Shown here piece by piece: positions 21,063-36,088 of a stretch of DNA of 64,000 bases. The notes beneath the pieces are model-generated. The model did no database searches and was not told the origin of the DNA. It was given only the letters and a program-made list of their open reading frames with translations. The first letter of the stretch is position 1. The number at the start of each line of letters is the position of its first letter. Source of the stretch: Ohessyouella blattaphilus (GTDB taxonomy: Bacteria > Bacillota > Clostridia > Lachnospirales > Lachnospiraceae); NCBI RefSeq assembly GCF_024721265.1, contig NZ_JAMXOC010000016.1:1-64000 (forward strand), in the 5' to 3' direction. The position numbers and the translations under genes are program-made.

Positions 21063-21096
21063 CAAAAAGCGAGCCTGGCAACTACTGCCAGGCTCG
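21063..21096 (-). terminator. Terminator of hsp20
   Basis: CGAGCCTGGCA/TGCCAGGCTCG is an 11-bp perfect stem with a five-base loop. On the minus strand it is followed by CTTTTTGC, placing it just after the hsp20 stop. Confidence 0.85.
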
Positions 21097-21128
21097 TATT
21101 AGAAAGGAGAACTTAAACATGTTCAAAA

Positions 21129-21554
21129 CTATTTGATTTCAATCAACTTTGCTTTTTCTTCTATTTTCTCTTTATCTTTAGGAAATTCTATCTTTAATAC
21201 TCCGTCCTCGAAATTAGCCTTTACATCTTCCTGAGTGATCGCATCACCTACATAGAAGCTCCGGCGGCTAGAACCAGTGTAACGCTCTTTGCGAAGAATC
21301 TTGCCTTCTTCGTCTTTTTCTACCTTTTCTTCCTTAGAACCGGCGGAAATAGTTAAGTAGCCATCTTTAATCTCGGCCTTTACATCTTCTTTCTTATATC
21401 CAGGTAGCTCCACCTCAAGCATGTAATTGCCGTTCTTTTCTTTCACGTCTGTCTTCATTACATGGGATTCGGCATTGCTATATGCTCCGTTAAAAAATGG
21501 GCTTCTAAACATCTCATCGAAAAAATTATTATAACTTCTGTTTGCTAATAACAT
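21129..21554 (-). CDS. Hsp20/alpha-crystallin small heat-shock protein
   Basis: About 141 residues. Three ATG codons in a row (21560, 21557, 21554) follow AGGAGG; the first is only two bases away, so the second or third is more likely and I use 21554. After an Asn/Phe-rich N-terminus comes an alpha-crystallin domain (about 32-135) with VELPGYKKEDVKAEI, DGYLTIS and the GVLKIEFP strand, then a short C-terminal tail with IEIK. It is a holdase that keeps unfolding proteins soluble. The promoter overlaps a CIRCE operator, so HrcA repression is expected. Confidence 0.93.
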   Translation of the reverse strand: MLLANRSYNNFFDEMFRSPFFNGAYSNAESHVMKTDVKEKNGNYMLEVELPGYKKEDVKAEIKDGYLTISAGSKEEKVEKDEEGKILRKERYTGSSRRSFYVGDAITQEDVKANFEDGVLKIEFPKDKEKIEEKAKLIEIK

Positions 21555-21611
21555 CATCATTACCTCCTATAATCATTACCAAAATATTTAACTCTTTGTT
21601 GCTATACATGT

Positions 21612-21640
21612 AATATAACACGCGTTGTTAGCACTGTCAA
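21612..21640 (-). promoter_or_regulatory. hsp20 promoter
   Basis: Read on the minus strand: TTGACA (+ coordinates 21635-21640) and TATATT (21612-21617) with a 17-base spacer. The -35 box lies inside the CIRCE element. Confidence 0.85.
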
Positions 21641-21654
21641 GTGGTGAGTGCTAA
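21628..21654. promoter_or_regulatory. CIRCE operator (HrcA-binding site)
   Basis: TTAGCACTG-N9-GAGTGCTAA, one base off the canonical TTAGCACTC-N9-GAGTGCTAA. It covers the hsp20 -35 box, a good position for repression by HrcA, whose gene is not in this window. Confidence 0.92.
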
Positions 21655-21677
21655 TTTTTTTAAAAAAAGTTTAAACC

Positions 21678-21706
21678 TTGACTTTTACTGGGAAAAAGGC
21701 AATAAT
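21678..21706 (+). promoter_or_regulatory. ssrA promoter
   Basis: TTGACT (21678-21683) and AATAAT (21701-21706) with a 17-base spacer, followed after about 20 bases by the mature tmRNA 5' end. It is divergent from the hsp20 promoter. Confidence 0.65.
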
Positions 21707-21728
21707 AGGTATGCACAGATAAGCTTTA

Positions 21729-22073
21729 GGGCTTGTACTGGTTTCGACGGGGATTCAGAAGTTTGAGAAGCCATCCGTAGTGGGGCACTACGTTAAAAGT
21801 TCCAACAAAATTTAAACGCAGACGAAAATTTAGCGTACGCAGCCTAGTTAGGCTGTAGTCGCCCTAAGGTATTCCGCAGCCTTAGACGCGGCTTCAAATG
21901 AAGCGGAGCACTTTGTACCCAAAGCTTTGCGGGTATAAAAGAACTTATGAAGCTACCGACGCCACGAACCTGTCATTAGGTGCTTGGTCGGGGGAATCTT
22001 AAAATAATGACTGTGATGGGAGATGCTTGAAGGGAAGAGTTTTCGGACGCGGGTTCAACTCCCGCCAGGTCCA
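21729..22073 (+). ncRNA. ssrA: Transfer-messenger RNA (tmRNA)
   Basis: About 345 bases. The 5' end GGGCTTG pairs with CAGGTCC near the 3' end as a 7-bp acceptor stem. GGTTTCGACGGGG near the start and CGGGTTCAACTCCCG (T-arm) near the end are diagnostic. The tag frame reads GCA GAC GAA AAT TTA GCG TAC GCA GCC TAG at 21818-21847, giving ADENLAYAA; an upstream AAC could add Asn if it is the resume codon. The bases after the discriminator A are CTA, so CCA is probably added after transcription. It rescues stalled ribosomes with SmpB. Confidence 0.95.
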
Positions 22074-22078
22074 CTAAC

Positions 22079-22126
22079 AAAAGAAGCTACAAACATGGTT
22101 TTTACCGTGTTTGTAGCTTCTTTTGG
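22079..22126. terminator. Terminator after ssrA (probably bidirectional)
   Basis: A 17-bp perfect stem (22079-22095 with 22108-22124) with TTTT at the end of the right arm and AAAA at the start of the left arm. It lies between ssrA and a convergent dehydrogenase gene. Confidence 0.85.
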
Positions 22127-22142
22127 TTTGTAAACAGTTGAT

Positions 22143-23321
22143 TTAATTCTCTTCGATTTCAGGAACTTCAACCCAAGAACGAGTGCGAGCGGAGGTCAAA
22201 ATAGCATCAGAAATCAGTTCTATTGCATATCCGTCTCGGAAATTAGGCGATGTTTCGCCGCTTTCGGCAATTGCTTTAAAAAAGTCGTAAGTTTCTACAA
22301 TTTTTGTCTCGGTATAGCCGATTCCTAAAGCGGGAATCGGCCAGAGTCCGTCGCCATAAGGATGGTTAGGACCGGTGTATACGGTGCGGAATCCACGACG
22401 ATCGGATTTGTCATCAGCAAAGCATACTTGAAGCTCGTCGCGGCGTTCATAGTTGAAATATACAGAACCTTTCGTGCCGTGGATTTCGAAGGTGATATAG
22501 TTGTTTCGTCCCCAAGCGTTTCGGGTAGCTTCGATGCTACCAAAAGCTCCGTTTTTGCACTCGATCATAAAAATACACTGGTCGTCAACATCCACGGGTT
22601 TGCGAGGAGTAGTATTGTCTGCTTTCACATTTCCCAAACTATCTATTCCGGCGTTTTGAATGGGCCGATCTTTGATATATGTGGCTGTGCGAGCGTTAAC
22701 TCTAGCAAAATCACCAACAAGGAAGCGTAACATGTCAACAACGTGAGTACCGATATCTCCGAGCGCGCCGCTGCCACAGATATCCTTTTGGAAGCGCCAT
22801 GACAGTGGCGAAGAAGGATCGGCAGACCAATCTTGGAGATAGGTGCCACGAAAGTCAAGAATATCGCCAAGAGCGCCTTCATCGATGTATTTTTTCGCTA
22901 ATTGAACGGCGGGCGTACGACGGTAGTTAAAAGCAACCATGGTGGTTACTTTGTTGTCGCGAGCAGCGATATACATATCCTTTGCTTCGCTTGGAGTAAG
23001 TGATAGCGGTTTCTCGCAAAGGATGTGTTTTCCGGCTTTTGCAGCAGCAATAGCGATTTCGGCATGTGTATTATTGGGGGTGCAGATATCGACAACGTCG
23101 ATGTTTGGATCGTTTACGATATCTTGCCAATTGGTGGTGTAAGTCTCGAAGGCAAATTTTTCCTTTGCCTCTTTTGCAAGGGTTTCATTAACATCAGCGA
23201 TAATCTTTTTAACAGGTATTGCGGGAGCGGGCCAAAAAAACATAGGCATTCCCGCGTAAGCTATGGAGTGCGCTTTAGCCATAAAGCCGGCACCAACCAT
23301 TCCAATATTCATTTTTTCCAT
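22143..23321 (-). CDS. Gfo/Idh/MocA-family sugar dehydrogenase (paralogue 1)
   Basis: 392 residues. An N-terminal Rossmann fold (GMVGAGFMAKAH at 8-18) binds NAD(P); CEKP with Lys104 and GDIGTHVVD with Asp189 and His193 are the catalytic residues usual for this family. The segment MPMFFWPAPAIPV (25-37) and TYLQDWSADPSSPLSWRF mark a subgroup that, from memory, includes levoglucosan dehydrogenase; this needs a database check. It oxidises or reduces a sugar or cyclitol hydroxyl. Second gene of a minus-strand pair, 11 bases after the isomerase-like gene, with AGGAGG before the ATG. It is clearly similar along its whole length to the gene at 28954-30129. Confidence 0.87.
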   Translation of the reverse strand: MEKMNIGMVGAGFMAKAHSIAYAGMPMFFWPAPAIPVKKIIADVNETLAKEAKEKFAFETYTTNWQDIVNDPNIDVVDICTPNNTHAEIAIAAAKAGKHILCEKPLSLTPSEAKDMYIAARDNKVTTMVAFNYRRTPAVQLAKKYIDEGALGDILDFRGTYLQDWSADPSSPLSWRFQKDICGSGALGDIGTHVVDMLRFLVGDFARVNARTATYIKDRPIQNAGIDSLGNVKADNTTPRKPVDVDDQCIFMIECKNGAFGSIEATRNAWGRNNYITFEIHGTKGSVYFNYERRDELQVCFADDKSDRRGFRTVYTGPNHPYGDGLWPIPALGIGYTETKIVETYDFFKAIAESGETSPNFRDGYAIELISDAILTSARTRSWVEVPEIEEN

Positions 23322-23332
23322 AATGTATCCTC

Positions 23333-24247
23333 CTAGATTACAAATTGTCTCATATAGTTGTATGAAAGGTTTAAAGAGTCTAAAACCTTTTGGTGAGTAG
23401 TTTCAAAAGCTTTGTCTTCGATTTCGATACAGGTGTAGCTGTCATAACCGATATCGGTTAACGCAGAGACATACTTTCCCCAATCCACATCCCCGAGTCC
23501 AGGTAGCTTCGGCGACATAAATTCTAAAGGATATGCCAAGGAACCGACATCGTTTAACCGATCTTGATAAACCTTGATATCTTTGTAGTGGACGTGAAAA
23601 ATCTTATCTTTAAATTCGTAAAGAGGCTTGATGTAATCGATATTTTGCCATACAAAGTGCGATGGATCGTAATTGAGACCGAAGTTTGGGCTAGGAACGA
23701 GTTCAAACGCTTTGCGCCATATTGCTGGTGTAGACATGAGGTTTTGTCCGCCAGGCCATTGATCGGGGCCGAATAGCATCGGGCAATTTTCAATAGCGAT
23801 TCTAACGTTTTGATTCTCTGCTAGCTTGATTAGAGGTGTCCATATTTCTTTAAAAATCTCCAGGTTTCTTTCAATGGTCAAATTTTGGACGCGGCCAATA
23901 AAGGTGGTTATCGTGTCGACGCCTAGTTTAGGGGCAGCCATAATCATGGCCTCAAGGTGCTTGACGGCCTTGGCGCGTTCGGTCATATCATCGGTTATGG
24001 TGTTTGGATAGTAGGCAAGTGCAGAAATTTCCACTTCTTTTTTCTGACAGTAAGCTTTTATATCGGAAATGTACTCCGGAGTAAGTTCAGAAATATCTAT
24101 ATGAGTAACTCCAGCGTAGCGCCTAGTTGCTTTTTCCTTTGGCCAACAAGCGACCTCTACACATTCGTATCCGATTGAGGACGCAGTATCGATTACTTCT
24201 TTGAATGAACAAGTATCTAAAATAGAACTGATAAAACCTAATTTCAT
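23333..24247 (-). CDS. Xylose-isomerase-like TIM-barrel enzyme (sugar isomerase/epimerase family)
   Basis: 304 residues of the AP endonuclease 2/xylose-isomerase-like family. Metal-ligand segments typical of the barrel are IAIENCPM (Glu), LNYDPSHFVW (Asp, His), HVHYKD (His) and CIEIED (Glu). Relatives isomerise, epimerise, dehydrate or cleave keto-sugars and inosose (IolE, IolI, DgpC, LgdB types), and the substrate cannot be fixed from sequence. First gene of the minus-strand pair, with AAAGGAG before its ATG and a promoter with LacI-type operator directly upstream. Confidence 0.82.
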   Translation of the reverse strand: MKLGFISSILDTCSFKEVIDTASSIGYECVEVACWPKEKATRRYAGVTHIDISELTPEYISDIKAYCQKKEVEISALAYYPNTITDDMTERAKAVKHLEAMIMAAPKLGVDTITTFIGRVQNLTIERNLEIFKEIWTPLIKLAENQNVRIAIENCPMLFGPDQWPGGQNLMSTPAIWRKAFELVPSPNFGLNYDPSHFVWQNIDYIKPLYEFKDKIFHVHYKDIKVYQDRLNDVGSLAYPLEFMSPKLPGLGDVDWGKYVSALTDIGYDSYTCIEIEDKAFETTHQKVLDSLNLSYNYMRQFVI

Positions 24248-24279
24248 TATAAACTCCTTTCGATAAAATAATTGTATTT

Positions 24280-24291
24280 ATTTGCGCAAAT
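24280..24291. promoter_or_regulatory. LacI-type operator of the minus-strand pair
   Basis: ATTTGCGCAAAT, a perfect 12-bp palindrome, at about +9 to +20 of the minus-strand transcript. It has the central CG typical of LacI-family operators and recurs at 24440 and, with small changes, at 24424 and 30198. Confidence 0.8.
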
Positions 24292-24305
24292 TTTTATCTG
24301 ATTTA

Positions 24306-24334
24306 ATTATGAAACAAAAAATACGAAAAGTCAA
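24306..24334 (-). promoter_or_regulatory. Promoter of the minus-strand sugar genes
   Basis: On the minus strand: TTGACT (+ coordinates 24329-24334), 17-base spacer, CATAAT (24306-24311). Confidence 0.75.
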
Positions 24335-24343
24335 CACAGATTA

Positions 24344-24353
24344 TTTGTGCAAA
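24344..24353. promoter_or_regulatory. Possible auxiliary operator
   Basis: TTTGTGCAAA differs by one base from the TTTGCGCAAA core. It lies upstream of the minus-strand -35 box, between the two divergent promoters. A second site could support looping. Confidence 0.4.
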
Positions 24354-24396
24354 ATGCTACAAAAACGCTAGAATTAGCCCTAATGGTTAAAAAGTA

Positions 24397-24425
24397 TTGA
24401 CAAACAAAGAAAAACAAGGTATGAT
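24397..24425 (+). promoter_or_regulatory. Promoter of the plus-strand sugar operon
   Basis: TTGACA (24397-24402), 17-base spacer, TATGAT (24420-24425), back to back with the minus-strand promoter. Confidence 0.85.
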
Positions 24426-24451
24426 TTACGCAAATAAAAATTTGCGCAAAT
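24424..24451. promoter_or_regulatory. Tandem LacI-type operators of the plus-strand sugar operon
   Basis: ATTTACGCAAAT (24424-24435) and ATTTGCGCAAAT (24440-24451), centres 16 bases apart. The first overlaps the -10 box and start site; the second is at about +9 to +20, the same relative position as the operator of the divergent gene. Repression by the cluster's LacI protein is expected. Confidence 0.8.
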
Positions 24452-24481
24452 TAAAGAAAAAGAAAGGAAAGTTACAAAGAT

Positions 24482-25294
24482 ATGAGACTGGGATATATGA
24501 CGAATGCGTTTGGTCCTCTAGTAGGAGATGGCGCTGGTGTAACTAGTGTAAAGGATATCCGCTATTTAACAATGGGGGATGACGAACAGATTCTAAAGCA
24601 GATTACGGAAGTTGGATTTAAAAGTATCGAGGTTTTAGAAGGAAATTTAACTAAATATAGTGGAGATCTTGCAGTTTTAAAAGATATGTTAAAGAAGTAC
24701 GATGCAGAATTGATGAGTGTGTGTGTAGGAGCTAATTTCATCTATAAAGATGCTCTCGAGGATGAAATGTATCATATGGAAGCTGTGGCAAAAGCGGCAA
24801 AAGAAGTAGGTGCTACCTATATCGCTTTATGTGGTGGGGCTATTCGCGGCAAAGGAATCCAAGATGGAGATTACAAGTTGTTAGGTGAAGGACTTGATGA
24901 GGCGCGAAAGGTGTTTGACGCTTATGGTCTTGAGGCGAGTTACCACCCGCATTTAGGATCGATGGCGGAAAGCCCAGATCAAATCGATAAATTATTTGCT
25001 GTTACCGATATTGCAATTTGCCCGGATCTTGCTCATCTTGCGGCTGGCGGTGGGAATCCTTTAGAAATAGTGAAGAAATACTATGATCGCATTTCTTTCA
25101 TGCATTTGAAGGATCTTGATGACAATGGCTTTGCTCCTTTGGGAACGGGACGTATCGATATTGTAAGTATCTTGGACTATTTAAAAGAAAAAGGCTATAA
25201 GGGCGATTATCTGGTGGAGATAGATGGCTACGCAGGTGATCCGCTAGAAGCGTGTCGGGTTTCTTATGATTTCTTAAAAGGAAAATTATTTTAA
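24482..25294 (+). CDS. Xylose-isomerase-like TIM-barrel enzyme 2
   Basis: 270 residues, same superfamily as the gene at 23333 but clearly different in sequence. Metal-ligand segments: SIEVLEGN, ASYHPHLGS, ICPDLAHLAAGGG (Asp, His), SFMHLKD (His) and YLVEIDGYAG (Glu). The family includes inosose dehydratase and keto-sugar eliminases or hydratases. First gene of the five-gene sugar operon, 26 bases before the binding-protein gene. Two barrel enzymes and two dehydrogenases in one regulon suggest consecutive steps on a keto-sugar; the exact reaction is inference. Confidence 0.82.
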   Translation: MRLGYMTNAFGPLVGDGAGVTSVKDIRYLTMGDDEQILKQITEVGFKSIEVLEGNLTKYSGDLAVLKDMLKKYDAELMSVCVGANFIYKDALEDEMYHMEAVAKAAKEVGATYIALCGGAIRGKGIQDGDYKLLGEGLDEARKVFDAYGLEASYHPHLGSMAESPDQIDKLFAVTDIAICPDLAHLAAGGGNPLEIVKKYYDRISFMHLKDLDDNGFAPLGTGRIDIVSILDYLKEKGYKGDYLVEIDGYAGDPLEACRVSYDFLKGKLF

Positions 25295-25320
25295 TTCAAA
25301 GTGAAAGTGAGGAGAAAAGT

Positions 25321-26466
25321 ATGAAAAAGCGAGTGGTAGCAAGTTTGATGTGTGTGGTTTTAATGATGTCGTTATTAATTGGCTGTGGTCAAAATTCGGA
25401 CTCATCTGATGATGCAGGGAAAGAAAGTCCGCAGACAGAGACGGCATCGTCGAGTAAGGCAAGTACAGGGGAGATTCTATCTACTAGTCCTAATGGAGAA
25501 GTGGCCACACCGGCATCAGAGTTAGAGTTAACAGAAGAAGAGAAGGCTCAGGTAAGAGAAGGGAACTACACAGCAGCGGTTGCGCTTCATTATGGTGGTA
25601 ATGACTGGTCAACATCTCAGGTGAAAGGGTTAACGGATACTTTTGCTGAACTAGGGATAAAGATTGTGGCCACAACGGATGCAAACTTTTCAGCAGAGCA
25701 GCAGGTGTCTGATATCGAAACGATTATGGCGAAGAAACCGGACATTTTAGTTAGTTTACCGACGGATGCAACTGCGACTGCCGACGCATACAAGAAGGCG
25801 GCAGAGTCAGGTATCAAAATTGTGTTCATGGATAACATTGCAAAGGGAATGAAAGCTGGTTCAGATTATGTGAGCTGCGTTTCGGCGGACAATTACGGAA
25901 ATGGATTAATTGCCGCAGATTTGATTGGTGAAAAGTTAGGTGGCAAAGGAAAAGTAGGTGTTATTTACTATGAAGCAGACTACTTTGTGACTAATCAACG
26001 CTTAGAAGCTTTTGAAGCGCAAATGGCAGAGCAGTATCCTGATATTGAAATTGTTTCTAAATTAGGTTTTACGGATGAAAATGGGTGTGCGGAAATTGCT
26101 GATGCTATGTTGACGCAGAACCCTAACATTGAAGCTATTTTTGCACACTGGGATATTCCGGCTGAAGGAGTGCTGTCAGCTTTAAGAGCAGCAGGGCGTG
26201 AAGATGTATATCTAAGCACTATAGATTTAGGAAACAATATTGCAAAAGAGATTGCTGAAGGTAATGTTTTGGGTGTTGGTGCACAACTTCCGTACGACCA
26301 AGGTGTTGCCGAGGCTACGCTAGCAGCATACGCCCTGTTAGGGAAAGAAACGCCTCCATACGTGGCAGTTGCGGCAAAACGGGTAGAGAAAAGCAATATT
26401 TTAGAAGGGTATACGGATGTTTTTCATGTAGAGGCACCGGACTGGCTTAAAGACGCAGCAAAATAG
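25321..26466 (+). CDS. Sugar ABC transporter substrate-binding lipoprotein
   Basis: 381 residues. The signal LLIGCG (Cys22) gives a lipid anchor, followed by a Ser/Thr-rich linker to about residue 55. The rest is a type I periplasmic-binding (ribose/galactose-type) fold: ALHYGGNDW, TTDANFSAEQQVSDIE, PDILVSLPTDA, DYVSCVSADNYGNG, and near the C-terminus PYDQGVAEATLAAYALLGKE. It captures the sugar outside the cell for the ATPase and permease encoded next. It is strikingly similar to the C-terminal half of the LacI-family regulator at 30287-32341. Confidence 0.92.
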   Translation: MKKRVVASLMCVVLMMSLLIGCGQNSDSSDDAGKESPQTETASSSKASTGEILSTSPNGEVATPASELELTEEEKAQVREGNYTAAVALHYGGNDWSTSQVKGLTDTFAELGIKIVATTDANFSAEQQVSDIETIMAKKPDILVSLPTDATATADAYKKAAESGIKIVFMDNIAKGMKAGSDYVSCVSADNYGNGLIAADLIGEKLGGKGKVGVIYYEADYFVTNQRLEAFEAQMAEQYPDIEIVSKLGFTDENGCAEIADAMLTQNPNIEAIFAHWDIPAEGVLSALRAAGREDVYLSTIDLGNNIAKEIAEGNVLGVGAQLPYDQGVAEATLAAYALLGKETPPYVAVAAKRVEKSNILEGYTDVFHVEAPDWLKDAAK

Positions 26467-26487
26467 AAATGAGAAGCGGAGATAGAT

Positions 26488-27984
26488 ATGGCGAAATATG
26501 TATTAGAAATGCAAGGCATTAACAAGAGTTTCGGTGTACCGGTTTTAAAAGATGTGGACTTTAAACTAAAGAAGGGTGAAGTGCATGCGTTAATTGGCGG
26601 GAACGGTGCAGGAAAATCGACGCTTATGAAGATTATGACCGGAGTTTATACGAAAGATGCGGGGCGAATTCTGGTTGAGGGAAGCGAGAAGAATATCCGT
26701 AATACTCACGATGCAAGGAAATATGGTATTGGCATGATTTTTCAAGAACTTTCCTTAGTACAAACTATGACGGTGGCGGAGAATATTTATCTAGGTGATG
26801 AAGTTGTAGTAAACGGCTTTCGTGATGCTAAGTTCATGAATAGGCAGGCTAAAGAAGTGCTGGAAGAGCTGGGGATCGAAGTGGATCCCCAAACGAAAGT
26901 CGACTCATTAAGCGTGGGATTGAGTCAAATGGTAGAGATTTCCAAGGCAGTTGCCAAGGATGCGAAGATTTTAGTTTTTGATGAACCGACAGCTTCTTTA
27001 TCGGAGGCGGAAACGCGTCAACTTTTTAAGATGATTGAAGAGCTAAAAGAAAAGGGTGTTTCGATAGTATATATCTCTCACAGAATGAGTGAAATCATGG
27101 AGATTGCTGACTCACTTACCGTGCTTCGAGATGGCGCAGTGGTGCATACTGGTGCGATAGCGGATATCGATTTAGACGGTATTATCACGCATATGATTGG
27201 TGGCGCGGCTAATAAAAAATTCGACTGGGTTGAAAGAAAGTATGACGAGAAAGGCGAAGATATTTTGACCGTTGAGCATTTACGTGTGAATGAGAAGATA
27301 TCAGATATTTCCTTTTCCTTGAAAAAGGGGGAGATATTGGGATTTGCAGGTTTGATGGGAAGCGGTCGTACAGAGATTTTAGAAACACTATTTGGACTTA
27401 CGAAAAAACAAGCAGGTTCTATCAAACTTAAAGGCAAAGAATTAAACCTTAAGAGTACCAAAGATGCAGTTCGGGAAGGATTGGCGTTGATTCCGGAGGA
27501 TCGGAGAAAGAAAGGCTTGGTCTTGATACATTCTCTTAAAGCGAATGCAATCCTACCAATTGTAGGAAAGCTACGAACGAAAGGTATCTTTATTGATGAA
27601 AAAAGAGCGAATAAGCTGGCGGAGGATAACGTTCGCGAGTTAAATGTTCGAACCGATGGCATTCACAAGCGAATAAACCTGCTTTCGGGTGGTAATCAGC
27701 AGAAAATAGTCATTGCCAAGTGGTTAAACGTTCACCCGGAAGTGATGATGTTAGATGAGCCGACCGCAGGTGTAGACGTTGGTGCTAAAGCAGAAATAAT
27801 CGATTTAATCCGTGGGTTTGCGGACACTGGAAAAGGCGTGCTGTTCGTGTCTTCGGAGTTAACTGAGCTCATGGCGGTATGTGATCGAATAATTGTGCTA
27901 TATGATGGAAAGATTACGGGTGAGCTTAATCGACGAGATATGAATACGGAGGTGGAACTTCAACATGCAATTCAACAAAAGTAA
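26488..27984 (+). CDS. Sugar ABC transporter ATP-binding protein (RbsA/MglA type)
   Basis: 498 residues with two fused ABC domains, the hallmark of ribose-type importers. Domain 1: Walker A GGNGAGKS, LSVGLSQMVEISKAV, Walker B VFDEPTASLSEAE. Domain 2: degenerate Walker A GLMGSGRT, intact LSGGNQQK and LDEPTAGVD. The asymmetry is normal for the family. Powers import by the permease, whose gene it overlaps by 20 bases. Confidence 0.94.
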   Translation: MAKYVLEMQGINKSFGVPVLKDVDFKLKKGEVHALIGGNGAGKSTLMKIMTGVYTKDAGRILVEGSEKNIRNTHDARKYGIGMIFQELSLVQTMTVAENIYLGDEVVVNGFRDAKFMNRQAKEVLEELGIEVDPQTKVDSLSVGLSQMVEISKAVAKDAKILVFDEPTASLSEAETRQLFKMIEELKEKGVSIVYISHRMSEIMEIADSLTVLRDGAVVHTGAIADIDLDGIITHMIGGAANKKFDWVERKYDEKGEDILTVEHLRVNEKISDISFSLKKGEILGFAGLMGSGRTEILETLFGLTKKQAGSIKLKGKELNLKSTKDAVREGLALIPEDRRKKGLVLIHSLKANAILPIVGKLRTKGIFIDEKRANKLAEDNVRELNVRTDGIHKRINLLSGGNQQKIVIAKWLNVHPEVMMLDEPTAGVDVGAKAEIIDLIRGFADTGKGVLFVSSELTELMAVCDRIIVLYDGKITGELNRRDMNTEVELQHAIQQK

Positions 27985-28927
27985 GAAAAATATTGAATGG
28001 GATAAATATATGGTATACATCATCTTTGTTGCTGTGTTTATCTTGTTCGCAATTATACTAGGTGACGAAGGTTTTTTGAATCCTAATAACCTGATCAATA
28101 TTCTAAGGCAGACAGCGATGATATCGATTATGGCAGTAGCGGGAACTTTCGTTATGGCAGCAGGACAAATAGATTTAACGGTGGGGTCAATTACAGCGAT
28201 GACTGCTATGTTTGTATCCTTGGTTATCCAATCGACAAATAGTATTCTTTTGGCGATTCTGGTTGGTTTAGGATTTGGCTGTGGTGTAGGATTTATCAAT
28301 GGAATTTTGGTGACTAAACTCAAACTCCCGGCGTTTCTGGCTACCCTGGGAATGATGCAAATCGTTCGTGGTGGGGCGATGTGGATTACCGATACGGCAG
28401 CGGTTCCGATTGCTAATACAACATTTAATAAAGTATTTGGAATTGGCGATGTAATGGGGATACCGGTTTTGGTGCTATGGACGATTTTATTCTATATTGT
28501 CGGAGTTTTGCTCTTTAACAAGACAGCTTTTGGTCGACATACCCTTGCGACTGGTGGTAATGAAATGTCGGCAATCTATAGTGGTATCAAAACGGCACGA
28601 GTAAAAATTATTGCTTTTACCATGTCAGGCGCTTTTGCTGCCTTTGCGGGCATGATGTACGCAGGCAGGATGCAAGCAGGGCGCTATTCTTATGGAGAAG
28701 GCGATGAGATGTCGGTAATTGCCTCGGTTGTTTTAGGTGGGACTTCCATGGCTGGTGGTACAGGGTCGGTTGTCGGCGCTTTGTTTGGTTCGATTCTAAT
28801 GGGAATTCTAAATAATGCTCTTATTTTAGCAGGGCTAAGCTCGGCTCAACAGACAATGGTAAAGGGAGCAATTATCATTGTCGCCGTAGCGATTAGTAAT
28901 TTGACTCAAAGAAAAAAGAATAATTAG
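27965..28927 (+). CDS. Sugar ABC transporter permease (RbsC type)
   Basis: 320 residues, very hydrophobic, with about eight to ten membrane helices. Typical ribose-type permease segments: GQIDLTVGSI, LPAFLATLGMMQIVRGG, TLATGGNEMSAIYSGI and SVIASVVLGGTSMAGGTG. The ATG lies inside the ATPase gene after GGAGGTG, so the two are translationally coupled. Forms a homodimeric pore with the fused ATPase. Confidence 0.94.
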   Translation: MQFNKSKKNIEWDKYMVYIIFVAVFILFAIILGDEGFLNPNNLINILRQTAMISIMAVAGTFVMAAGQIDLTVGSITAMTAMFVSLVIQSTNSILLAILVGLGFGCGVGFINGILVTKLKLPAFLATLGMMQIVRGGAMWITDTAAVPIANTTFNKVFGIGDVMGIPVLVLWTILFYIVGVLLFNKTAFGRHTLATGGNEMSAIYSGIKTARVKIIAFTMSGAFAAFAGMMYAGRMQAGRYSYGEGDEMSVIASVVLGGTSMAGGTGSVVGALFGSILMGILNNALILAGLSSAQQTMVKGAIIIVAVAISNLTQRKKNN

Positions 28928-28953
28928 TTTATAAATTAGGAGGTAGAATAAAA

Positions 28954-30129
28954 ATGAAGAAATTAAACATTGGATTAGTTGGCGCGGGATTTATGGGAAA
29001 AGCGCATGTGGTTGGTTACTCAAATATGCCTAAACTATTTTGGCCAGCTCCAGCAATGCCGGTTTTTAAAACGGTGTGTGACATTGTACCAGAAATTGCC
29101 GAAGAGGCCAAAGAAAGATTTGGGTTTGAACGTTGTTGTACAGATTGGCACGATATTGTAAACGATCCAGAGATTGATGTGGTTAGTATTTGTACCCCGA
29201 ACAATGCTCATGCAGAGGTGGCGATTGCTGCTCTTGAAGCAGGAAAGCACGTGATTTGCGAAAAGCCGATAGCATCTAAACTTGAAGATGCAAAAGCGAT
29301 GGCAGAAGCTGCGAAGGTGGCTGCTGATAAAGGCATTGTGAGTATGAATGCATATCAATATCGCCGAGTGCCGGCTATTGACTTGGCGAAAAAGTTTATC
29401 GATGAAGGTTCGATTGGAAAGATTCTAAACATTAGATGTACATATTTACAGAGTTGGTCCGCAGATCCGGATTCACCATTATCTTGGAGATTCCAGAAGG
29501 ACATCGCCGGAGCAGGAACACTAGGAGATATTACTTCTCACGTGATTGATATTGCCCAATATCTTGCAGGTGATATCGATGAGGTCGTATCAATGATGCA
29601 AACGTATATTAAAGAAAGGCCAGTTCAAGAAGGTGGCGTTGATTTACTTGGCACAGTGAAGCTTGGAGCAGATGCGCCACGTCAAGAGGTGGACGTAGAT
29701 GATGAAAACTCCTTCTTGGTCAAATTCAAGAGTGGTGCTGTGGGAAGTATCGAGGCGACTAGAAATGCTTGGGGTCGCAACAACTTTATCACCATTGAGC
29801 TACACGGTACGGAGGGATCTTTAGCCTTTAATTATGAAAGATTAAATGAGTTACAGGTTTGTTTTGCAAAGGATCCGGATGATCGGCGCGGGTTCAAGAC
29901 GATCTATACAGGTCCGGCTCACTTCCACGGTGAAGCGACTTGGAATATCCCGGGTATGAACATAGGTTACGGTGAGTTAAAAGCTATTGAAATGTATGAA
30001 TTTGTTAAAGCGATTGCCGAGGGGTATCAACCATCGACGAGCTTTGAAGTGGGATACAGAATTGAAAGAGTATGTGAAGCAGTTGCGGAGTCGGCTGAAA
30101 ATAAGAAGTGGGAAAAGGTTCGCGATTAA
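28954..30129 (+). CDS. Gfo/Idh/MocA-family sugar dehydrogenase (paralogue 2)
   Basis: 391 residues, paralogous along its length to the minus-strand gene at 22143-23321. Rossmann loop GLVGAGFMGKAH, the shared FWPAPAMPV segment, CEKP with Lys104, and GDITSHVID with Asp192 and His196. Differences from paralogue 1 cluster in the catalytic domain (IGTHVVDML against ITSHVIDIA), which suggests a different substrate or direction, for example one oxidising the imported sugar and the other reducing the final keto-sugar. Last enzyme gene of the operon, AGGAGG upstream. Confidence 0.87.
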   Translation: MKKLNIGLVGAGFMGKAHVVGYSNMPKLFWPAPAMPVFKTVCDIVPEIAEEAKERFGFERCCTDWHDIVNDPEIDVVSICTPNNAHAEVAIAALEAGKHVICEKPIASKLEDAKAMAEAAKVAADKGIVSMNAYQYRRVPAIDLAKKFIDEGSIGKILNIRCTYLQSWSADPDSPLSWRFQKDIAGAGTLGDITSHVIDIAQYLAGDIDEVVSMMQTYIKERPVQEGGVDLLGTVKLGADAPRQEVDVDDENSFLVKFKSGAVGSIEATRNAWGRNNFITIELHGTEGSLAFNYERLNELQVCFAKDPDDRRGFKTIYTGPAHFHGEATWNIPGMNIGYGELKAIEMYEFVKAIAEGYQPSTSFEVGYRIERVCEAVAESAENKKWEKVRD

Positions 30130-30150
30130 CTAAGGAACAGTTTATGGGAT

Positions 30151-30174
30151 GGAGTCTGCCGTTTGGCAGGCTCT
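30151..30174 (+). terminator. Weak terminator-like hairpin after the sugar operon
   Basis: AGTCTGCC/GGCAGGCT with a GTTT loop; only TGTTT follows, so termination may be partial and some operon transcripts may run into the regulator gene. Confidence 0.45.
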
Positions 30175-30197
30175 GTTTGCAAAAAAAGAAGAAACAA

Positions 30198-30209
30198 ATT
30201 TGCGCAAGT
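30198..30209. promoter_or_regulatory. LacI-type operator upstream of the regulator gene
   Basis: ATTTGCGCAAGT matches the cluster palindrome in 10 of 12 positions and ends five bases before the -35 box of the regulator. This suggests autoregulation. Confidence 0.7.
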
Positions 30210-30213
30210 GAAA

Positions 30214-30242
30214 TTGACTTTGCCTTGTGTGAATTATATAAT
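30214..30242 (+). promoter_or_regulatory. Promoter of the LacI-family regulator
   Basis: TTGACT (30214-30219), 17-base spacer, perfect TATAAT (30237-30242). Confidence 0.85.
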
Positions 30243-30286
30243 GAGTGACAAGTGATGATAAAAATCAGAAAAGCGAGGATCAATAT

Positions 30287-32341
30287 ATGGCAACGATTAA
30301 TGATATTGCTAAAAAGGCTAATGTTTCGACCTCGACTGTATCCCATGTCGTAAACAAAACCAGATTCGTGAGTCCAGAGCTAGTTGAACGCGTTGAGCGA
30401 GCAATCGCAGAATTAGATCACCCACCTAATTTTGTAATTAAAAAAACTTCTCAAAAAGTACCCTTAGAAGTGGGGAAATATATCTTGATTCTCCTTACTG
30501 ATCAAGGAAGTAATTTTCAGCGCCAAGTAGAGAGACAGGTTGAATTACATTTGAAGAATACGGAGTATACACCGATTGCCATGAAATGCATTGACGATGT
30601 GGCGGCGATAGAAGGATTTATAAAACCGTTGTTGGAATCGGACTCGGTCTCAGGTGTTATCGTTTTTCCTGATGATAACAATATCTTACTGAGGCAAATC
30701 TTAGGTAAGCACAAGGTGCCGGTTGTTGTTCTTGGACATGAGGTAGAAGGGTATCTGGCGGATGTGATTTCGTCGGATACGGCGGGTGGAGCCTTTAAGG
30801 CGATGAAACATCTTATAAATAAGGGGCATGAAAGAATTGCTTTTCTTGGTAGTGGCAAAGAGGGTTCGTCCATGCGGTTAGATGGATATAAAAAATGCCT
30901 TGAAGAATATGGTATATCATACCGAGAAAACTATGTGTTTTCTTCGCTGGAAAATGAACGACAGGTTTTTGATACGCTTGACCAGTTGCTGAGCGGAGCG
31001 GAGATGCCCACAGCGATTTTTGCAGCTAATTACGCGGTGGTTGTGCCTCTTCTGAAATATGTGGAAGCGCATAATATCTTATGTCCGGATGAGATATCAA
31101 TTGTAAGTTTTAATAACTTTGAATGGGCGCCTTTGCATTCGCCGGCGATCACGACGATTGAACAAGATGTGGAAGAAACCGGAAGACTAGCTGTGGCGAC
31201 CTTACTGCAAAGGGTGCAGAATCAAGAATATGCGAATTTGCCTGTAAACAAAAATATCTACCAGCATCACCAACTAGGTACGCAAATTGCGGTGCGTTCA
31301 TCTACAGGTGGTATAGGTCGTGGTCCCTTTGGGGAAAGGGCGGCTCAAGCAGGAGAAATAATTTTGTCGGAGAGTGAAGTGGAAGCTCTGAGACAGAAGA
31401 AGCTCACGGCAGCGATTTGTTTTCATTATGCGGGAAAAGCATGGATGGAATTACACCAAAGAGGGATTAGAGACGTTTTTGATAACTTAGGAATCTCGCT
31501 GATTTCAGTTACGGATGCTCATTTTGATTCAGAGTTGCAGTGTCGGCAGCTAGACAGTCTTCAGATATTAAAACCCGATATTGTTATTGCTATTCCAACG
31601 GATAATCAAAAGACTAGCGCTGCGTTTAAGCGGGTCGTTGACAGTGATTCGAAACTAGTTTTGATTACTAATGTCCCCGACGGCTTGACGCCGGATGATT
31701 ATGTTACTTGTGTTTCTGTAAATGAACGATCTCATGGCCAAAACATGGGGCATGGGTTAGGTGAATACATGAGTAAACATAACTTAAAAAATTATGGCAT
31801 GGTTATTTATGATGCGAATTTCTATGCAACTAATCAGCGGGATAATGCGGCAAAGCAGGTAATGAGCGAAGAGTACCCCGAGCTACACCTGTGCCAAGAT
31901 TTAAAATTTACAAATGAAGAAGAAGTTTATAAGAAAACCTGTGAATTTGTAAATCGATATCCAGAAGTGGAAGCGTTTTACGTGTCTTGGGATGGACCGG
32001 CGATGGAAGTGCTAGCGGCGTTGTCGGATATGGGACGTTCAGAAGTTGCCATTATTACCAGCGATTTGGATAGCGCGGATGCGCTGAATATGGCAAAAGG
32101 CGGTATGATAAAAATGTTGAGTGCTCAATGTCCTTATGAACAAGGACAAGCAATTGCCTGGGCAGCAGGAAACGCGATGTTGGGAAAAAAGACTCCTTCT
32201 TTTATTGGGGTTGAACCGGTTAGCGTTACGCCGGATAATTTGTTGAAATCATGGAAACGCATTTTTAAGGAGAATCCAAGCGCGGAGCTAGTTCAAGCTT
32301 TTAAAGAAAATCCAAATTATGTAACGACAGAAGAAGATTAA
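30287..32341 (+). CDS. LacI-family regulator with a second, transporter-like sugar-binding domain
   Basis: 684 residues, twice the usual 330-350 of a LacI protein. The start is ATG 30287 (GAGG upstream), giving MATINDIAKKANVSTSTVSH, a canonical LacI helix-turn-helix (1-50). Residues about 60-340 are a normal LacI sensor (AFLGSG.EGSSMRLDGY, PDEISIVSFNN, ITTIEQDVEETGRLA). Residues about 370-665 form a second type I periplasmic-binding fold aligning with the lipoprotein at 25321-26466: ICFHYAGKAW against VALHYGGNDW, DYVTCVSV against DYVSCVSA, ATNQRDNA against VTNQRLEA, CPYEQGQAIAWAAGNAMLGKKTP against PYDQGVAEATLAAYALLGKETP. No signal peptide or membrane segment precedes it. It presumably represses the cluster at the TTTGCGCAAA sites. 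Length and continuous frame argue against a sequencing artefact. Confidence 0.88.
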   Translation: MATINDIAKKANVSTSTVSHVVNKTRFVSPELVERVERAIAELDHPPNFVIKKTSQKVPLEVGKYILILLTDQGSNFQRQVERQVELHLKNTEYTPIAMKCIDDVAAIEGFIKPLLESDSVSGVIVFPDDNNILLRQILGKHKVPVVVLGHEVEGYLADVISSDTAGGAFKAMKHLINKGHERIAFLGSGKEGSSMRLDGYKKCLEEYGISYRENYVFSSLENERQVFDTLDQLLSGAEMPTAIFAANYAVVVPLLKYVEAHNILCPDEISIVSFNNFEWAPLHSPAITTIEQDVEETGRLAVATLLQRVQNQEYANLPVNKNIYQHHQLGTQIAVRSSTGGIGRGPFGERAAQAGEIILSESEVEALRQKKLTAAICFHYAGKAWMELHQRGIRDVFDNLGISLISVTDAHFDSELQCRQLDSLQILKPDIVIAIPTDNQKTSAAFKRVVDSDSKLVLITNVPDGLTPDDYVTCVSVNERSHGQNMGHGLGEYMSKHNLKNYGMVIYDANFYATNQRDNAAKQVMSEEYPELHLCQDLKFTNEEEVYKKTCEFVNRYPEVEAFYVSWDGPAMEVLAALSDMGRSEVAIITSDLDSADALNMAKGGMIKMLSAQCPYEQGQAIAWAAGNAMLGKKTPSFIGVEPVSVTPDNLLKSWKRIFKENPSAELVQAFKENPNYVTTEED

Positions 32342-32355
32342 TAATATATAAAAAT

Positions 32356-32387
32356 GGAGCCTTTATCTAGAGGCTCCGTCTTTTTTT
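32356..32387 (+). terminator. Terminator after the LacI-family regulator
   Basis: GGAGCCT/AGGCTCC stem with GTC and seven T following. It closes the sugar cluster. Confidence 0.88.
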
Positions 32388-32440
32388 ACAGAAAGTGCGA
32401 AAGTTAGACGCAGAATTGACACAAAAAAGGCGTACAATAT

Positions 32441-32449
32441 GGTAAAATC
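32441..32449 (+). promoter_or_regulatory. Extended -10 promoter of the two-component system
   Basis: TGGTAAAAT (TGn plus TAAAAT). A TTGACA at 32417-32422 lies 21 bases before it, too far for a standard spacer, so the extended -10 may carry most of the recognition. Confidence 0.5.
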
Positions 32450-32502
32450 TAATCATTGTATAATCGTGCTTGGCACATGAAACTAGTGGGAGGAAAAATA
32501 AG

Positions 32503-33180
32503 ATGAATCATAATACCATATTAGTAGTTGATGACGAAGAGAGAATGCGGACGTTGATTAAGGATTTTCTTACCCGAGAAGGCTATAATGTTCTCGAAGC
32601 GAACGATGGCATGGAAGCGATGGAAGTTTTTTATAATAATAAAGACATAGCGCTAATTCTGTTAGATGTAATGATGCCCAAGATGGATGGCTGGCAGGTA
32701 TGCCGGGAGATCAGAGAAACCTCGAAGGTGCCGATTATTATGCTGACGGCTAGAGGGGAAGAAAGAGATGAATTAAAGGGGTTTGAACTAGGTGTAGATG
32801 AATATATTGCCAAACCCTTTAGCCCCAAGGTGCTAGTAGCCAGAGTGAATGCCCTTCTTCGCCGTACTTATAATACGGAGGCAGGAGATGCGGTGACCGC
32901 CGGAGAGATTACTCTTGATAAGGCGGCTCATGAAGTAAAGGTAGACGGTATTGAAGTCGAACTTAGCTACAAAGAGTTTGAGCTACTGGCTTATTTTATT
33001 GAAAATCAAGGGATTGCTCTTTCTAGAGAAAAAATCCTTAATAGTGTATGGAATTACGATTATTTTGGAGATGCCAGAACCATTGATACCCACGTGAAAA
33101 AGCTGCGGAGCAAGTTAGGCGAATGCGGGGATTATATTAAGACCATTTGGGGTATGGGTTATAAATTCGAGGTGGAATAG
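32503..33180 (+). CDS. OmpR/PhoB-family response regulator
   Basis: 225 residues from ATG 32503 (GGGAGGA upstream), which gives the normal MNHNTILVVDDEERMR start. Receiver domain with Asp10/Asp11, phosphoacceptor Asp55 in LILLDVMMPKMDG, Thr in IIMLTARG and Lys in YIAKPF. The C-terminal winged-helix domain ends RTIDTHVKKLRSKLG and WGMGYKFEVE, typical of OmpR/PhoB. Its stop overlaps the GTG of the kinase gene, forming one operon. Target genes unknown. Confidence 0.94.
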   Translation: MNHNTILVVDDEERMRTLIKDFLTREGYNVLEANDGMEAMEVFYNNKDIALILLDVMMPKMDGWQVCREIRETSKVPIIMLTARGEERDELKGFELGVDEYIAKPFSPKVLVARVNALLRRTYNTEAGDAVTAGEITLDKAAHEVKVDGIEVELSYKEFELLAYFIENQGIALSREKILNSVWNYDYFGDARTIDTHVKKLRSKLGECGDYIKTIWGMGYKFEVE

Positions 33181-34655
33181 TGAAGAAATCTTTAAAGGGG
33201 CAACTGACAAAAATTTTTATAACGTTGATTGCCATGATGCTATTTGTGTTGATGATGCTTAACTTTAGTTTCTTGAGTCCGTATTACATCAGTCAGAAAC
33301 TAGGTGAGTTTGATCGGATATACCATTCGATTGCGAACCAAAAGGCTGAGATTTTTGACATGGATAATGATGAGGCTAGAAGCCGAGTAAGTAAAATTGC
33401 GGAAAATAGCAATTCCCAATACTTTATTATCGACACCCAGCTATCGATGATGGTTTCCAATGCCAACGAGTTTGATGAGAAGAATCTCTCGGCGCAACTA
33501 GCTGGGTATCAGTTAGGGCAGGCGCAGAAGGATGGACGTCTGTTAGTGGGGGATGGGAATTATGAGATTTATCAAATACGCGATCCCAGAAACGATACGG
33601 AGTATATTGAAATGTGGGGGCAGCAGGGCAGTTCTTATTCATTTATTGTGCGTAGTCCTCTAGAAAGTATTCGGGAAAGCGTAACCATCTCCAATCGTTT
33701 TTTAATGATTGTGGGATTAGGAATGTGTGCTGTATGTAGTCTCTTGATCTGGGTTTTTGCAGAGAATATCACCAAGCCGATTAAGAAGCTGACGTATCTA
33801 TCAGCTTGTATGGCCAATCTGGACTTTGATGCCAGGTATACGGGAAATGAGCAGAATGAAATCGGCGATCTGGGGATGAACTTTAACCGGATGTCGGAGA
33901 AGCTAGAGAAGACGATTTCGGAGCTTAAGCGAGCCAATAATAAGCTGGAACAGGATATTGAACGGAAGCAGAAAGAGGAAGAGCTGCGGAAGCAGTTTTT
34001 GGGAAGCGTTTCCCACGAGCTAAAGACGCCAATTGCCTTGATTCAGGGATATGCCGAAGGGCTTAAAGATGGCATTACCCAGGATCCAGAAAGCCAAAGG
34101 GAATACTTAAATGTGATTCTTGACGAGGCTGGAAAGATGAACGAGATGGTTCGTAACCTCTTAAAGCTTAATGAGCTAGAGCTTGGCGGCGACGACGTTG
34201 TCTTCACCCGCTTTAACCTAACGGAGCTGGTTAGAGAAGTGGTTAATAGTATGGAAATTATGATTAGGCAAAAGGAAGCGGTGTTGTGCTTTAAAACCGA
34301 GGAAGACATATATGCCTGGGCGGATCCCTATAAAATAGAGCAGGTGGTTCGTAATTACTTAAGCAATGCCCTGCAGCATTTGGACGGCGATAAAGTGATT
34401 GAGGTGAAGATTAACCAGCATGAAGATAAGCTTCGGGTGTCCGTCTTTAATACCGGTTCACCGATTTCGGAAGAGGATATTAACCATATCTGGGATATGT
34501 TCTATAAAGCTGATAAGGCGAGAACCAGGGCGTATGGCGGCAATGGCATTGGGCTTTCGATTGTGAAGGCGATTATGGATTCCCTCCATCAGGAATTCGG
34601 CGTAACAAACTACGATAACGGCGTGGAATTCTGGTTCGAGTTGGATGCGAAGTAA
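33180..34655 (+). CDS. Sensor histidine kinase
   Basis: 491 residues starting with GTG 33180, which overlaps the regulator's stop by one base (AGGTGG upstream). Membrane helix 1 at about 11-33, an extracytoplasmic sensor of about 135 residues, helix 2 at about 172-194, HAMP (195-247), a coiled coil, HisKA with SVSHELKTP (His279), and an ATPase domain with NYLSNALQHL and GNGIGLSIVKAI. The sensor has no Cys or clear PAS motif that would reveal the signal. Partner of the upstream response regulator; known families of this layout include wall- and antibiotic-sensing VanS-type kinases, but that is only resemblance. Confidence 0.92.
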   Translation: MKKSLKGQLTKIFITLIAMMLFVLMMLNFSFLSPYYISQKLGEFDRIYHSIANQKAEIFDMDNDEARSRVSKIAENSNSQYFIIDTQLSMMVSNANEFDEKNLSAQLAGYQLGQAQKDGRLLVGDGNYEIYQIRDPRNDTEYIEMWGQQGSSYSFIVRSPLESIRESVTISNRFLMIVGLGMCAVCSLLIWVFAENITKPIKKLTYLSACMANLDFDARYTGNEQNEIGDLGMNFNRMSEKLEKTISELKRANNKLEQDIERKQKEEELRKQFLGSVSHELKTPIALIQGYAEGLKDGITQDPESQREYLNVILDEAGKMNEMVRNLLKLNELELGGDDVVFTRFNLTELVREVVNSMEIMIRQKEAVLCFKTEEDIYAWADPYKIEQVVRNYLSNALQHLDGDKVIEVKINQHEDKLRVSVFNTGSPISEEDINHIWDMFYKADKARTRAYGGNGIGLSIVKAIMDSLHQEFGVTNYDNGVEFWFELDAK

Positions 34656-34705
34656 GGAATAAAGTAAGAAATAGAGTGAGGAAGAGAGCGAGGAAAAGAA
34701 GTAGA

Positions 34706-35323
34706 GTGATAGCAATAATTGATTATGATGCAGGAAATATGCGCAGTGTGGAAAAGGCCCTTTTATACCTAGGGGCAGAGGTGAAGGTGACCCGTGATAG
34801 AGAGGAGCTTTTAGCAGCTGATAAGGTGGTGCTTCCAGGTGTTGGCAATTTCGGCGATGCCATGAGCAAATTGAAAGAGTACAATCTAATCCCGACCATT
34901 AAAGAAGTGGCCGCTAGCGGCAAACCGTTCTTAGGTATCTGTCTCGGCCTTCAGCTTCTATTTGAAAGCAGCGAGGAGAGCCCAGGGGTAGAAGGACTTT
35001 CCCTTCTCCCAGGAAAGATAGTAAAGTTTCCGGTAACTCCAGGTTATAAGATTCCGCATATGGGGTGGAATTCTTTGAACTTTAAAAATGCTGGGCGTCT
35101 CTTCGCGGGCCTTGGTGAGAATAGCTTTGTGTATTTCGTCCATTCTTATTATCTAGAAGCGGCCAAAAAGGAAATGGTCAAAGCGACTAGCGATTACATT
35201 TTAGAATTCGATGCTTCGATTGAGCGAGGGAATGTGTTTGGCTGTCAATTTCACCCGGAAAAAAGCGGGGATGTGGGGCTTCAGATTTTACAAAACTTTG
35301 TAGCTTTAGAGGAGGGAAAATAA
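34706..35323 (+). CDS. hisH: Imidazole glycerol phosphate synthase, glutaminase subunit
   Basis: 205 residues. I use the GTG at 34706 because it gives the family start VIAIIDYDAGNMRSV; the frame extends 10 codons upstream into a purine-rich spacer. Class I amidotransferase with LPGVGNFGDAM, nucleophile GICLGLQ (Cys79) and the FHPEKSG triad near 184. It feeds ammonia to HisF, whose ATG begins directly after this stop codon. No other his gene is in the window, so the pair is detached from the rest of histidine synthesis. Confidence 0.93.
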   Translation: MIAIIDYDAGNMRSVEKALLYLGAEVKVTRDREELLAADKVVLPGVGNFGDAMSKLKEYNLIPTIKEVAASGKPFLGICLGLQLLFESSEESPGVEGLSLLPGKIVKFPVTPGYKIPHMGWNSLNFKNAGRLFAGLGENSFVYFVHSYYLEAAKKEMVKATSDYILEFDASIERGNVFGCQFHPEKSGDVGLQILQNFVALEEGK

Positions 35324-36088
35324 ATGCATACGAAAAGAATTATTCCGTGCTTGGACGTTCATGAAGGACGGGTGGTAAAAGGCGTTAATTTCGTCAATTT
35401 GCAGGATGCTGGCGATCCGGTGGAGATTGCCAAAGCGTATAATAGCGCTGGTGCTGATGAGTTAGTATTTTTAGATATTACCGCTTCCTCCGATGCGAGA
35501 GAAACGGTGGTAGAGATGGTGCGAAAGGTGGCCGAACAGGTCTTTATTCCGTTTACCGTTGGCGGTGGAATTCGAACGGTAGAGGATTTTCGGACTCTCC
35601 TTAGAGAAGGTGCGGATAAGATTTCCATTAATTCCTCGGCTATCGATAACCCTCAGTTGATTCGGGAAGCAGCGGACAAATTTGGTTCCCAGTGCGTGGT
35701 GGTGGCGATAGATGTGAAGAAACGAGCAGATGGAAGCGGCTGGAACGTCTATAAGCTAGGAGGCCGTCTCGATACAGGACTGGACGCCGTCGAGTGGGCA
35801 AAGGAAGTAGCCGCTTTAGGAGCTGGTGAAATTTTGCTAACGAGTATGGACGGTGACGGGACGAAAGCCGGTTATGATTTAGAGGTAACCCGGGCCGTTG
35901 CGGAAAGTGTGAACATCCCGGTTATCGCTTCAGGTGGTGCTGGCGAGTGTAAGCATTTTTTGGAAGCGTTGACAAAAGGCAAAGCCGATGCCGCTTTAGC
36001 CGCCTCTTTATTCCACTTTAAGGAGCTGGAAATTAGAGAAGTGAAAGAGTATTTAAATGAACACGGGGTACCCGTGCGTTTGACATAG
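35324..36088 (+). CDS. hisF: Imidazole glycerol phosphate synthase, cyclase subunit
   Basis: A 254-residue TIM-barrel cyclase: [19 protein letters not shown] at the start with the catalytic Asp, [39 protein letters not shown] with the second catalytic Asp, and PVIASGGAG. It converts the HisA product, with ammonia from HisH, to imidazole glycerol phosphate and AICAR. GGAGGG precedes the ATG. Ends 9 bases before ung. Confidence 0.95.

Follow-up and report, generated by a model that had tools for sequence, protein, structure and literature searches.

What is a second, complete sugar-binding domain doing at the end of a LacI-type regulator, and where did it come from? The question is raised by one gene in the window, by which we mean the whole stretch of 64,000 nucleotides of Ohessyouella blattaphilus DNA analyzed here. 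An earlier note, made from the sequence alone, had described the product as a LacI regulator recently fused to a copy of the binding protein of its own transporter, and had suggested that one repressor might read two ligands. The features discussed below are collected in Table 1.

The gene reads as a single stop-free frame of 684 codons. Its ATG at 30287 is preceded by GCGAGGA and by a near-consensus promoter match; a GTG at 30245 is a less likely start, since it sits directly behind the -10 (30237-30242) and the ribosome-binding site belongs to the ATG. Pfam recognizes a helix-turn-helix of LacI type and not of AraC type (PF00356, 56.9 bits against a cut-off of 27), a LacI core (Peripla_BP_3, PF13377, residues 174-340, 118.4 bits) and a second binding domain (Peripla_BP_4, PF13407, residues 376-635, 119.3 bits). 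An AlphaFold model, made with an alignment of 26 fusion sequences including that of the window, has a mean pLDDT of 89.4 and a pTM of 0.75. Residues 1-340 of the model align to RbsR (9ny7_B; Z 30.0, rmsd 12.7) and also to PurR, the high rmsd being taken to reflect a different placement of the helix-turn-helix against the core, and residues 362-661 align to the ribose substrate-binding protein 4kq9 (Z 31.2, rmsd 2.4 over 288 residues). Frame, domains and model agree with the architecture described earlier, a LacI helix-turn-helix and core followed by a complete substrate-binding domain (SBD). The 36 distinct fusions that we collected all lack a lipobox pattern in their N-terminal 45 residues, and the SBD is internal to the regulator, unlike the exported CUT2 substrate-binding proteins (SBPs), which have a signal or lipobox. 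An assembly join or a frameshift between two genes was ruled out, because the architecture recurs in other assemblies, with the 36 distinct fusions coming from many genomes.

Table 1. Features of the levoglucosan-type locus and of the fusion gene in the window (coordinates are positions in the window).
Feature	Position	Strand	Basis
LgdA-like levoglucosan dehydrogenase	22143..23321	-	NF052479, 6a3f match
TIM-barrel, putatively LgdB2-like by size	23333..24247	-	PF01261; sizes per excerpt of PMC7676230
Operator-like ATTTGCGCAAAT, downstream of leftward lgd promoter	24280..24291		Pattern search
Promoter-like TTGACT-17-CATAAT, leftward lgd operon	24306..24334	-	Promoter pattern
Promoter-like TTGACA-17-TATGAT, rightward lgd operon	24397..24425	+	Promoter pattern
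Degenerate operator-like ATTTACGCAAAT, overlaps end of rightward -10	24424..24435		Pattern search
Operator-like ATTTGCGCAAAT, downstream of rightward lgd promoter	24440..24451		Pattern search
TIM-barrel, putatively LgdB1-like by size	24482..25294	+	PF01261; sizes per excerpt of PMC7676230
CUT2 substrate-binding lipoprotein, relative of fused domain	25321..26466	+	Pfam, alignment, tree
CUT2 ABC ATPase	26488..27984	+	Pfam and NCBIfam profile match
CUT2 permease	27965..28927	+	Pfam
Second LgdA-kind oxidoreductase, putatively LgdC-like	28954..30129	+	NF052479, 6a3f match
Operator-like ATTTGCGCAAGT, just upstream of fusion gene's -35	30198..30209		Pattern search
Promoter-like TTGACT-17-TATAAT, fusion gene	30214..30242	+	Promoter pattern
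LacI-SBD fusion regulator, 684 aa	30287..32341	+	ORF, Pfam, model; 35 other distinct fusions in tree
LacI helix-turn-helix, residues 3-48	30293..30430	+	PF00356; recognition residues T15, S16, H20
LacI core, original sensor, residues about 60-340	30464..31306	+	PF13377 at 174-340
Junction IGRGPFGERA, residues about 343-368	31313..31390	+	Matches lipoprotein pre-domain motif GPxGE
Fused type I SBD, residues about 371-660	31397..32266	+	PF13407, pocket alignment, model

The genes around the fusion look like a levoglucosan (lgd) pathway. The product of the gene at 22143 matches the NCBIfam levoglucosan dehydrogenase profile NF052479 at 737.3 bits (cut-off 650), with 6a3f as its best solved relative (626 bits), and that of the gene at 28954 matches the same profile at 622.7 bits, below the cut-off, and 6a3f at 525.4 bits. 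The chain of 6a3f is identical in sequence to that of 6A3I, which an excerpt of PMC10066097 names as LGDH. The lgd cluster of Bacillus smithii S-2701M, as presented in excerpts of PMC7676230, comprises lgdA, lgdB1, lgdB2, lgdC, an ABC transporter, an SBP and a LacI family gene, each with a proven or putative counterpart by sequence in the window; those excerpts give the regulator only as 'LacI family'. Because the LgdA- and LgdC-like genes, the TIM-barrels and the CUT2 transporter resemble this cluster, levoglucosan is the likely substrate of the locus. Directly 3' of the fusion gene, at 32470-34655, the translations suggest a putative response regulator and histidine kinase.

Comparison of the fused domain with the transporter's lipoprotein shows an alignment over the full length, with identity at 100 of 294 columns (34%, E 8e-64), and the short shared blocks quoted in the earlier note are present. 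This likeness across the whole domain speaks for a duplication of the lipoprotein gene onto a LacI gene, recently and within the lineage, as does the finding that 18 of the 19 fusions of the clade that includes lgd-linked regulators (clade I, below) lie on a contig with genes that share at least 48% identity with the LgdA or LgdC of the window locus. The SBD tree argues otherwise. It contains 36 fusion SBDs (those of the window and its paralogue included), 36 SBPs related to these and another 16 at a greater distance; rows below 50 bits were dropped, and an SBD-profile match of 20.6 bits (L076:8221) and duplicates of identical sequence (L095, the same as G157, for example) were left out of the counts. 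The 36 fusion SBDs come out as a single clade (100/100) on a stem of 1.21 changes per column, nested inside the SBP family of the lipoprotein (72 rows of SBPs and fusions), and the lipoprotein itself groups with other lgd lipoproteins. A clade of the window's SBD and lipoprotein is rejected (p-AU 0.00011), whereas one of the fusions and 15 lgd lipoproteins is not (p-AU 0.507); the position of the fusion clade within the family is an open fork with support of 83/87. Some fusions also adjoin a transporter with a binding protein that the tree places in the outgroup. Thus the earlier placement of the domain in the lipoprotein's family, and not among generic LacI sensors, holds, but the tree and the AU test rule out a recent in-lineage copy of its own lipoprotein, and we regard the duplication as wholly improbable.

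The window's SBD thus groups with the 35 other fusion SBDs; its identity is 38-66% to the ten that were aligned and 35% to the lowest BLAST match among fusions (L098). A motif preceding the domain, GPxGE, is shared by 35 of 36 fusions and 25 of the 36 SBPs of the family, and none of the 16 outgroup SBPs has it; the window's lipoprotein has SPNGE at this position, and the cut-off row L079 does not include that stretch. Since this motif is retained at the junction, it seems that a whole mature binding protein was appended to a LacI ancestor. The LacI halves of the fusions lie on one side of a branch from 50 ordinary LacIs (support of 98 in a quick tree). With a single long-stemmed SBD clade and the pairing of the window's two copies rejected, the sequences point to one ancient fusion that later spread, also to loci whose pump has a more distant binding protein. 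No pre-fusion LacI ancestor was found among the LacIs compared, namely the ordinary LacIs of the gathered loci and the plain LacIs of two lgd-like loci without an adjoining fusion (G928 and G1017), because the latter score only 115 and 124 bits against the LacI half, below the 160 bits of the best ordinary LacIs. In two other genomes of the phylum, lgd-like loci carry a plain LacI in the fusion's place (L178:6338-7351 and L179:12032-13036), adjoining an SBP of the same family.

A second full-length fusion, 35% identical, is present in the genome itself (C9:63001-64959), and among the matches listed from a search of 60 relatives the full-length ones were only in this genome. The 397 genomes of the family hold 11 fusion genes in nine genomes, this one included; the 295 genomes of the order have fusions in two genomes besides it, and the 398 genomes of the phylum in none besides it. 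A scan of named genomes gave at least 79 loci, at least 24 of them full-length fusions, with hosts that include Lachnospiraceae, an Oscillospiraceae bacterium, Jeotgalibacillus, Shouchella, Aneurinibacillus, Paenibacillus, Enterococcus and one Verrucomicrobiota MAG.

The fusions fall into two clades. Clade I has 19 rows, 17 of them at 100/100 with the other two joined at 92/53, and its one row without LgdA/LgdC-like genes on the fusion's contig has them on another contig of the same genome. Clade II has 17 rows (100/99), and 11 of these adjoin a CUT2 transporter and a GH32-like gene, identified by Pfam as Glyco_hydro_32N in the two that were tested. The transporter SBPs of these 11 loci fall in the outgroup of the SBD tree, so the adjacent transporter is not the source of the fused domain there. 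Among the rest of clade II, three rows belong to Gfo/Idh loci (one in L070, two in L071) and one, L067, to an lgd locus, and two (L091 and L093) adjoin a CUT2 transporter with neither. In the paralogue's own locus (L009:10984-18163, equivalent to G000:C9:62983-70162) the fusion adjoins a GH32-like enzyme and a CUT2 transporter whose SBP is RbsB-like, and TTTACGTAAA sites are present, which predicts a separate regulon. At L071:12245-16548 two different fusion regulators stand in tandem; their sequences are the same as those of L095 (Lactonifactor longoviformis), and the neighboring Gfo/Idh-TIM-barrel-CUT2 locus includes a related SBP. The Verrucomicrobiota fusion (L090:9974-12001), which has a GH32-like neighbor, is nested among Bacillota and reflects either inter-phylum transfer or a misbinned contig. 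The clade II fusion of L067 (9623-11623) has TTTACGTAAA sites in an lgd-type locus, perhaps because the two locus types have swapped regulators.

Palindromes with a central CG, as expected for the LacI/GalR family, are present in the sequence at the promoters predicted to be regulated. The two ATTTGCGCAAAT sites both lie just downstream of the -10 of the divergent lgd promoter matches, and the ATTTGCGCAAGT before the fusion gene differs from them by one base. The promoter matches themselves are hardly above expectation in the lgd region (two against 1.3 in shuffles) and clearer before the fusion gene (three against 0.4). We rejected a chance origin of the operator-like sites, as none of 100 shuffles reached the five matches to TTTGCGCAAR in the window (three sites, with palindromes counted on both strands), although the excess is weaker with one mismatch allowed, where two of 100 shuffles equal the window, and a strand-counted search of the genome gave six matches against three for the backwards control. 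Genome-wide there are four ATTTGCGCAARW sites, three of them at the lgd/fusion locus and the fourth at C4:12910.

The same kinds of site are found at other fusion loci. Thirty-five of these, together 633 kb with only 16 kb of the window taken (20001-36000), contain 20 TTTGCGCAAA and 50 TTTACGTAAA sites, compared with 11 and 3 in the 1,052 kb of 61 comparison loci. The recognition residues T15, S16 and H20 of the fusion presumably correspond to Y17, Q18 and R22 of LacI. Where residue 16 is serine (nine rows), GCGC sites are present in seven and ACGT sites in none; where it is alanine (27 rows), ACGT sites are present in 23, GCGC sites in four and neither in three, giving five of the 36 rows with neither exact core (two rows share one locus). 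The nine serine rows are exactly one clade, so that this match between residue and operator is support but not independent replication.

We asked which of the two sensors reads the sugar by comparing the residues of their pockets. Twelve positions, which we take to be the ribose contacts of ribose-binding protein, were mapped onto the SBD through alignments, and for the core we used what we likewise take to be the contact positions of LacI. The pocket of the fused domain includes H380, W386, N462, R518, F541, W568, D593 and Q614. Five of these (H380, R518, F541, W568 and Q614) are kept in all 36 fusions and D593 in 35, and these six are also common to the lgd lipoproteins. Positions kept in at least 34 rows make up 6/12 of the pocket and 36/278 of the remaining SBD (p 0.003), and the window's SBD matches the lipoprotein at 8/12 pocket columns compared with 104/322 others (p 0.018). 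The pockets are not identical at four positions (T461 for D171, K384 for N94, M387 for S97 and S592 for I301, SBD for lipoprotein), so the ligand of the SBD may differ from that of the lipoprotein. At these positions, 384, 387, 461 and 592, clades I and II also tend to have different residues, as expected if specificity has followed the pathway.

The LacI core has fared differently. The position of LacI D274 is aspartate (D276) in only three of 36 fusions and R197 is kept in 23, whereas both are present in all 50 ordinary LacIs compared, which are the best BLAST matches among the gathered loci and not a random sample; the fusions have also lost several further core positions that at least 45 of the 50 conserve. 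The core of the window has R197 and N276. Across five bins of like helix-turn-helix identity, the last with five fusion pairs, the mean core identity of the fusions is 8.5 to 16.5 points below that of ordinary LacIs, and their mean pairwise identity is 48.0 in the SBD and 26.8 in the core, albeit with P145, G180, P267 and S339 of the core in all 36. In the three of seven close pairs that have a finite dS in all three parts, two of them near saturation, dN/dS is 0.046-0.061 for the SBD and 0.094-0.141 for the core. Retention of the SBD pocket and loss of the core's effector residues favor sensing by the fused domain, and we conclude that sugar sensing probably now falls to the borrowed SBD, with the anhydrosugar levoglucosan as the probable ligand, while the original sensor has decayed.

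Two other readings of the domains were weighed against this. The fusion could be a dual-input repressor that senses with both domains: the core and the SBD might each have a ligand, such as an intermediate of the pathway and the sugar brought in, with release of the operator tuned by both, much as the earlier note had proposed. Both folds are complete and confidently modeled, and some core binding may persist, since R197 is still common and N276, present in 14 of the 19 clade I cores, could still hydrogen-bond; however, the near absence of D276, the further conserved positions lost and the far greater variability of the core than of the SBD all count against it. We consider dual input unlikely, if by no means negligible, and the decay of the core's effector residues favors a single sensor, the SBD. 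Less probable again, and to our minds doubtful, is that the LacI core senses and the fused domain is a structural or oligomerization part that does not bind sugar. LacI's own extra C-terminal part makes tetramers, and only one of 36 fusions has at position 461 the aspartate that all 17 lgd lipoproteins have there, which would fit such a role; the six pocket residues are nevertheless conserved above other SBD positions, and the lower dN/dS of the SBD, for the few pairs available, also argues against it.

We therefore prefer, as rather probable, a LacI-type repressor of the levoglucosan locus and of its own gene in which sensing has moved to the borrowed SBD. An ancestor would have gained a whole mature CUT2-family SBP at its C-terminus in one ancient event, from the same family as the binding proteins of the lgd transporters. 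The regulator would bind the TTTGCGCAAA palindromes as a LacI dimer, repressing both the genes for levoglucosan uptake and breakdown and its own. The borrowed domain would remain in the cytosol with its sugar pocket retained and most likely close when it binds the imported sugar, or a derivative made in the pathway, leading to release of the operator, and the LacI core, its effector contacts lost, would act mainly as dimer scaffold and relay. To the wider account, in which the old core decayed to a scaffold after the ancient gain and the move of sensing, and the module was re-used for other sugars, we give an even chance; at the GH32-linked locus that sugar is perhaps fructan.

The fusion resembles LacI/GalR repressors such as RbsR, PurR and CcpA in its helix-turn-helix and core, its even, central-CG palindrome and its local sugar locus, and differs from them in its second complete SBP domain and in the lack of the D274 equivalent in 33 of 36 cores. 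YbbB (Btr in B. subtilis) is likewise a transcription factor fused to a domain that resembles the SBP of the neighboring transporter, and its function was reportedly described by Gaballa and Helmann in 2007. It is not known to contain an older second sensor with the fold of its SBP domain. It is also of AraC type and serves a siderophore, where the fusion here is of LacI type and probably serves a sugar, and resemblance to the adjacent transporter's SBP holds for the fusion at the window (34%) but not at the 11 GH32-linked loci. In excerpts of PMC3896406, YbbB is an AraC-type regulator with a FeuA-like binding domain, encoded beside feuA. The synthetic chimera SLCPGL, designated LacI-GGBP-OD in excerpts of PMC6079105, likewise joins a LacI DNA-binding part to a periplasmic sugar-binding protein as sensor, although it is engineered and, as those excerpts have it, the binding protein replaces the LacI core, whereas the natural fusion appends it behind the core. 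YbbB/Btr is thus the nearest natural precedent and the LacI-GGBP chimera the nearest artificial one. A word search of the LacI regulon survey PMC4052901 did not find fusion, fused or additional domain, and no natural LacI-SBP fusion was named in the open-access titles and beginnings of abstracts searched, a scope outside which most subscription papers and domain-architecture databases fall; the architecture may be known elsewhere. One-component regulators with a borrowed SBP are already known, and the LacI-type fusion is not a new category.

The textbook example of a binding protein turning into a gene switch is the pairing of LacI repressors with periplasmic binding proteins. Here that step was seemingly taken a second time, with the old and the new sensor in one chain, so that one can test directly how an allosteric signal passes between two like-folded domains. 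The fusion offers a natural design for SBP-based biosensors, and it gives a predicted operator and regulator for the use of levoglucosan.
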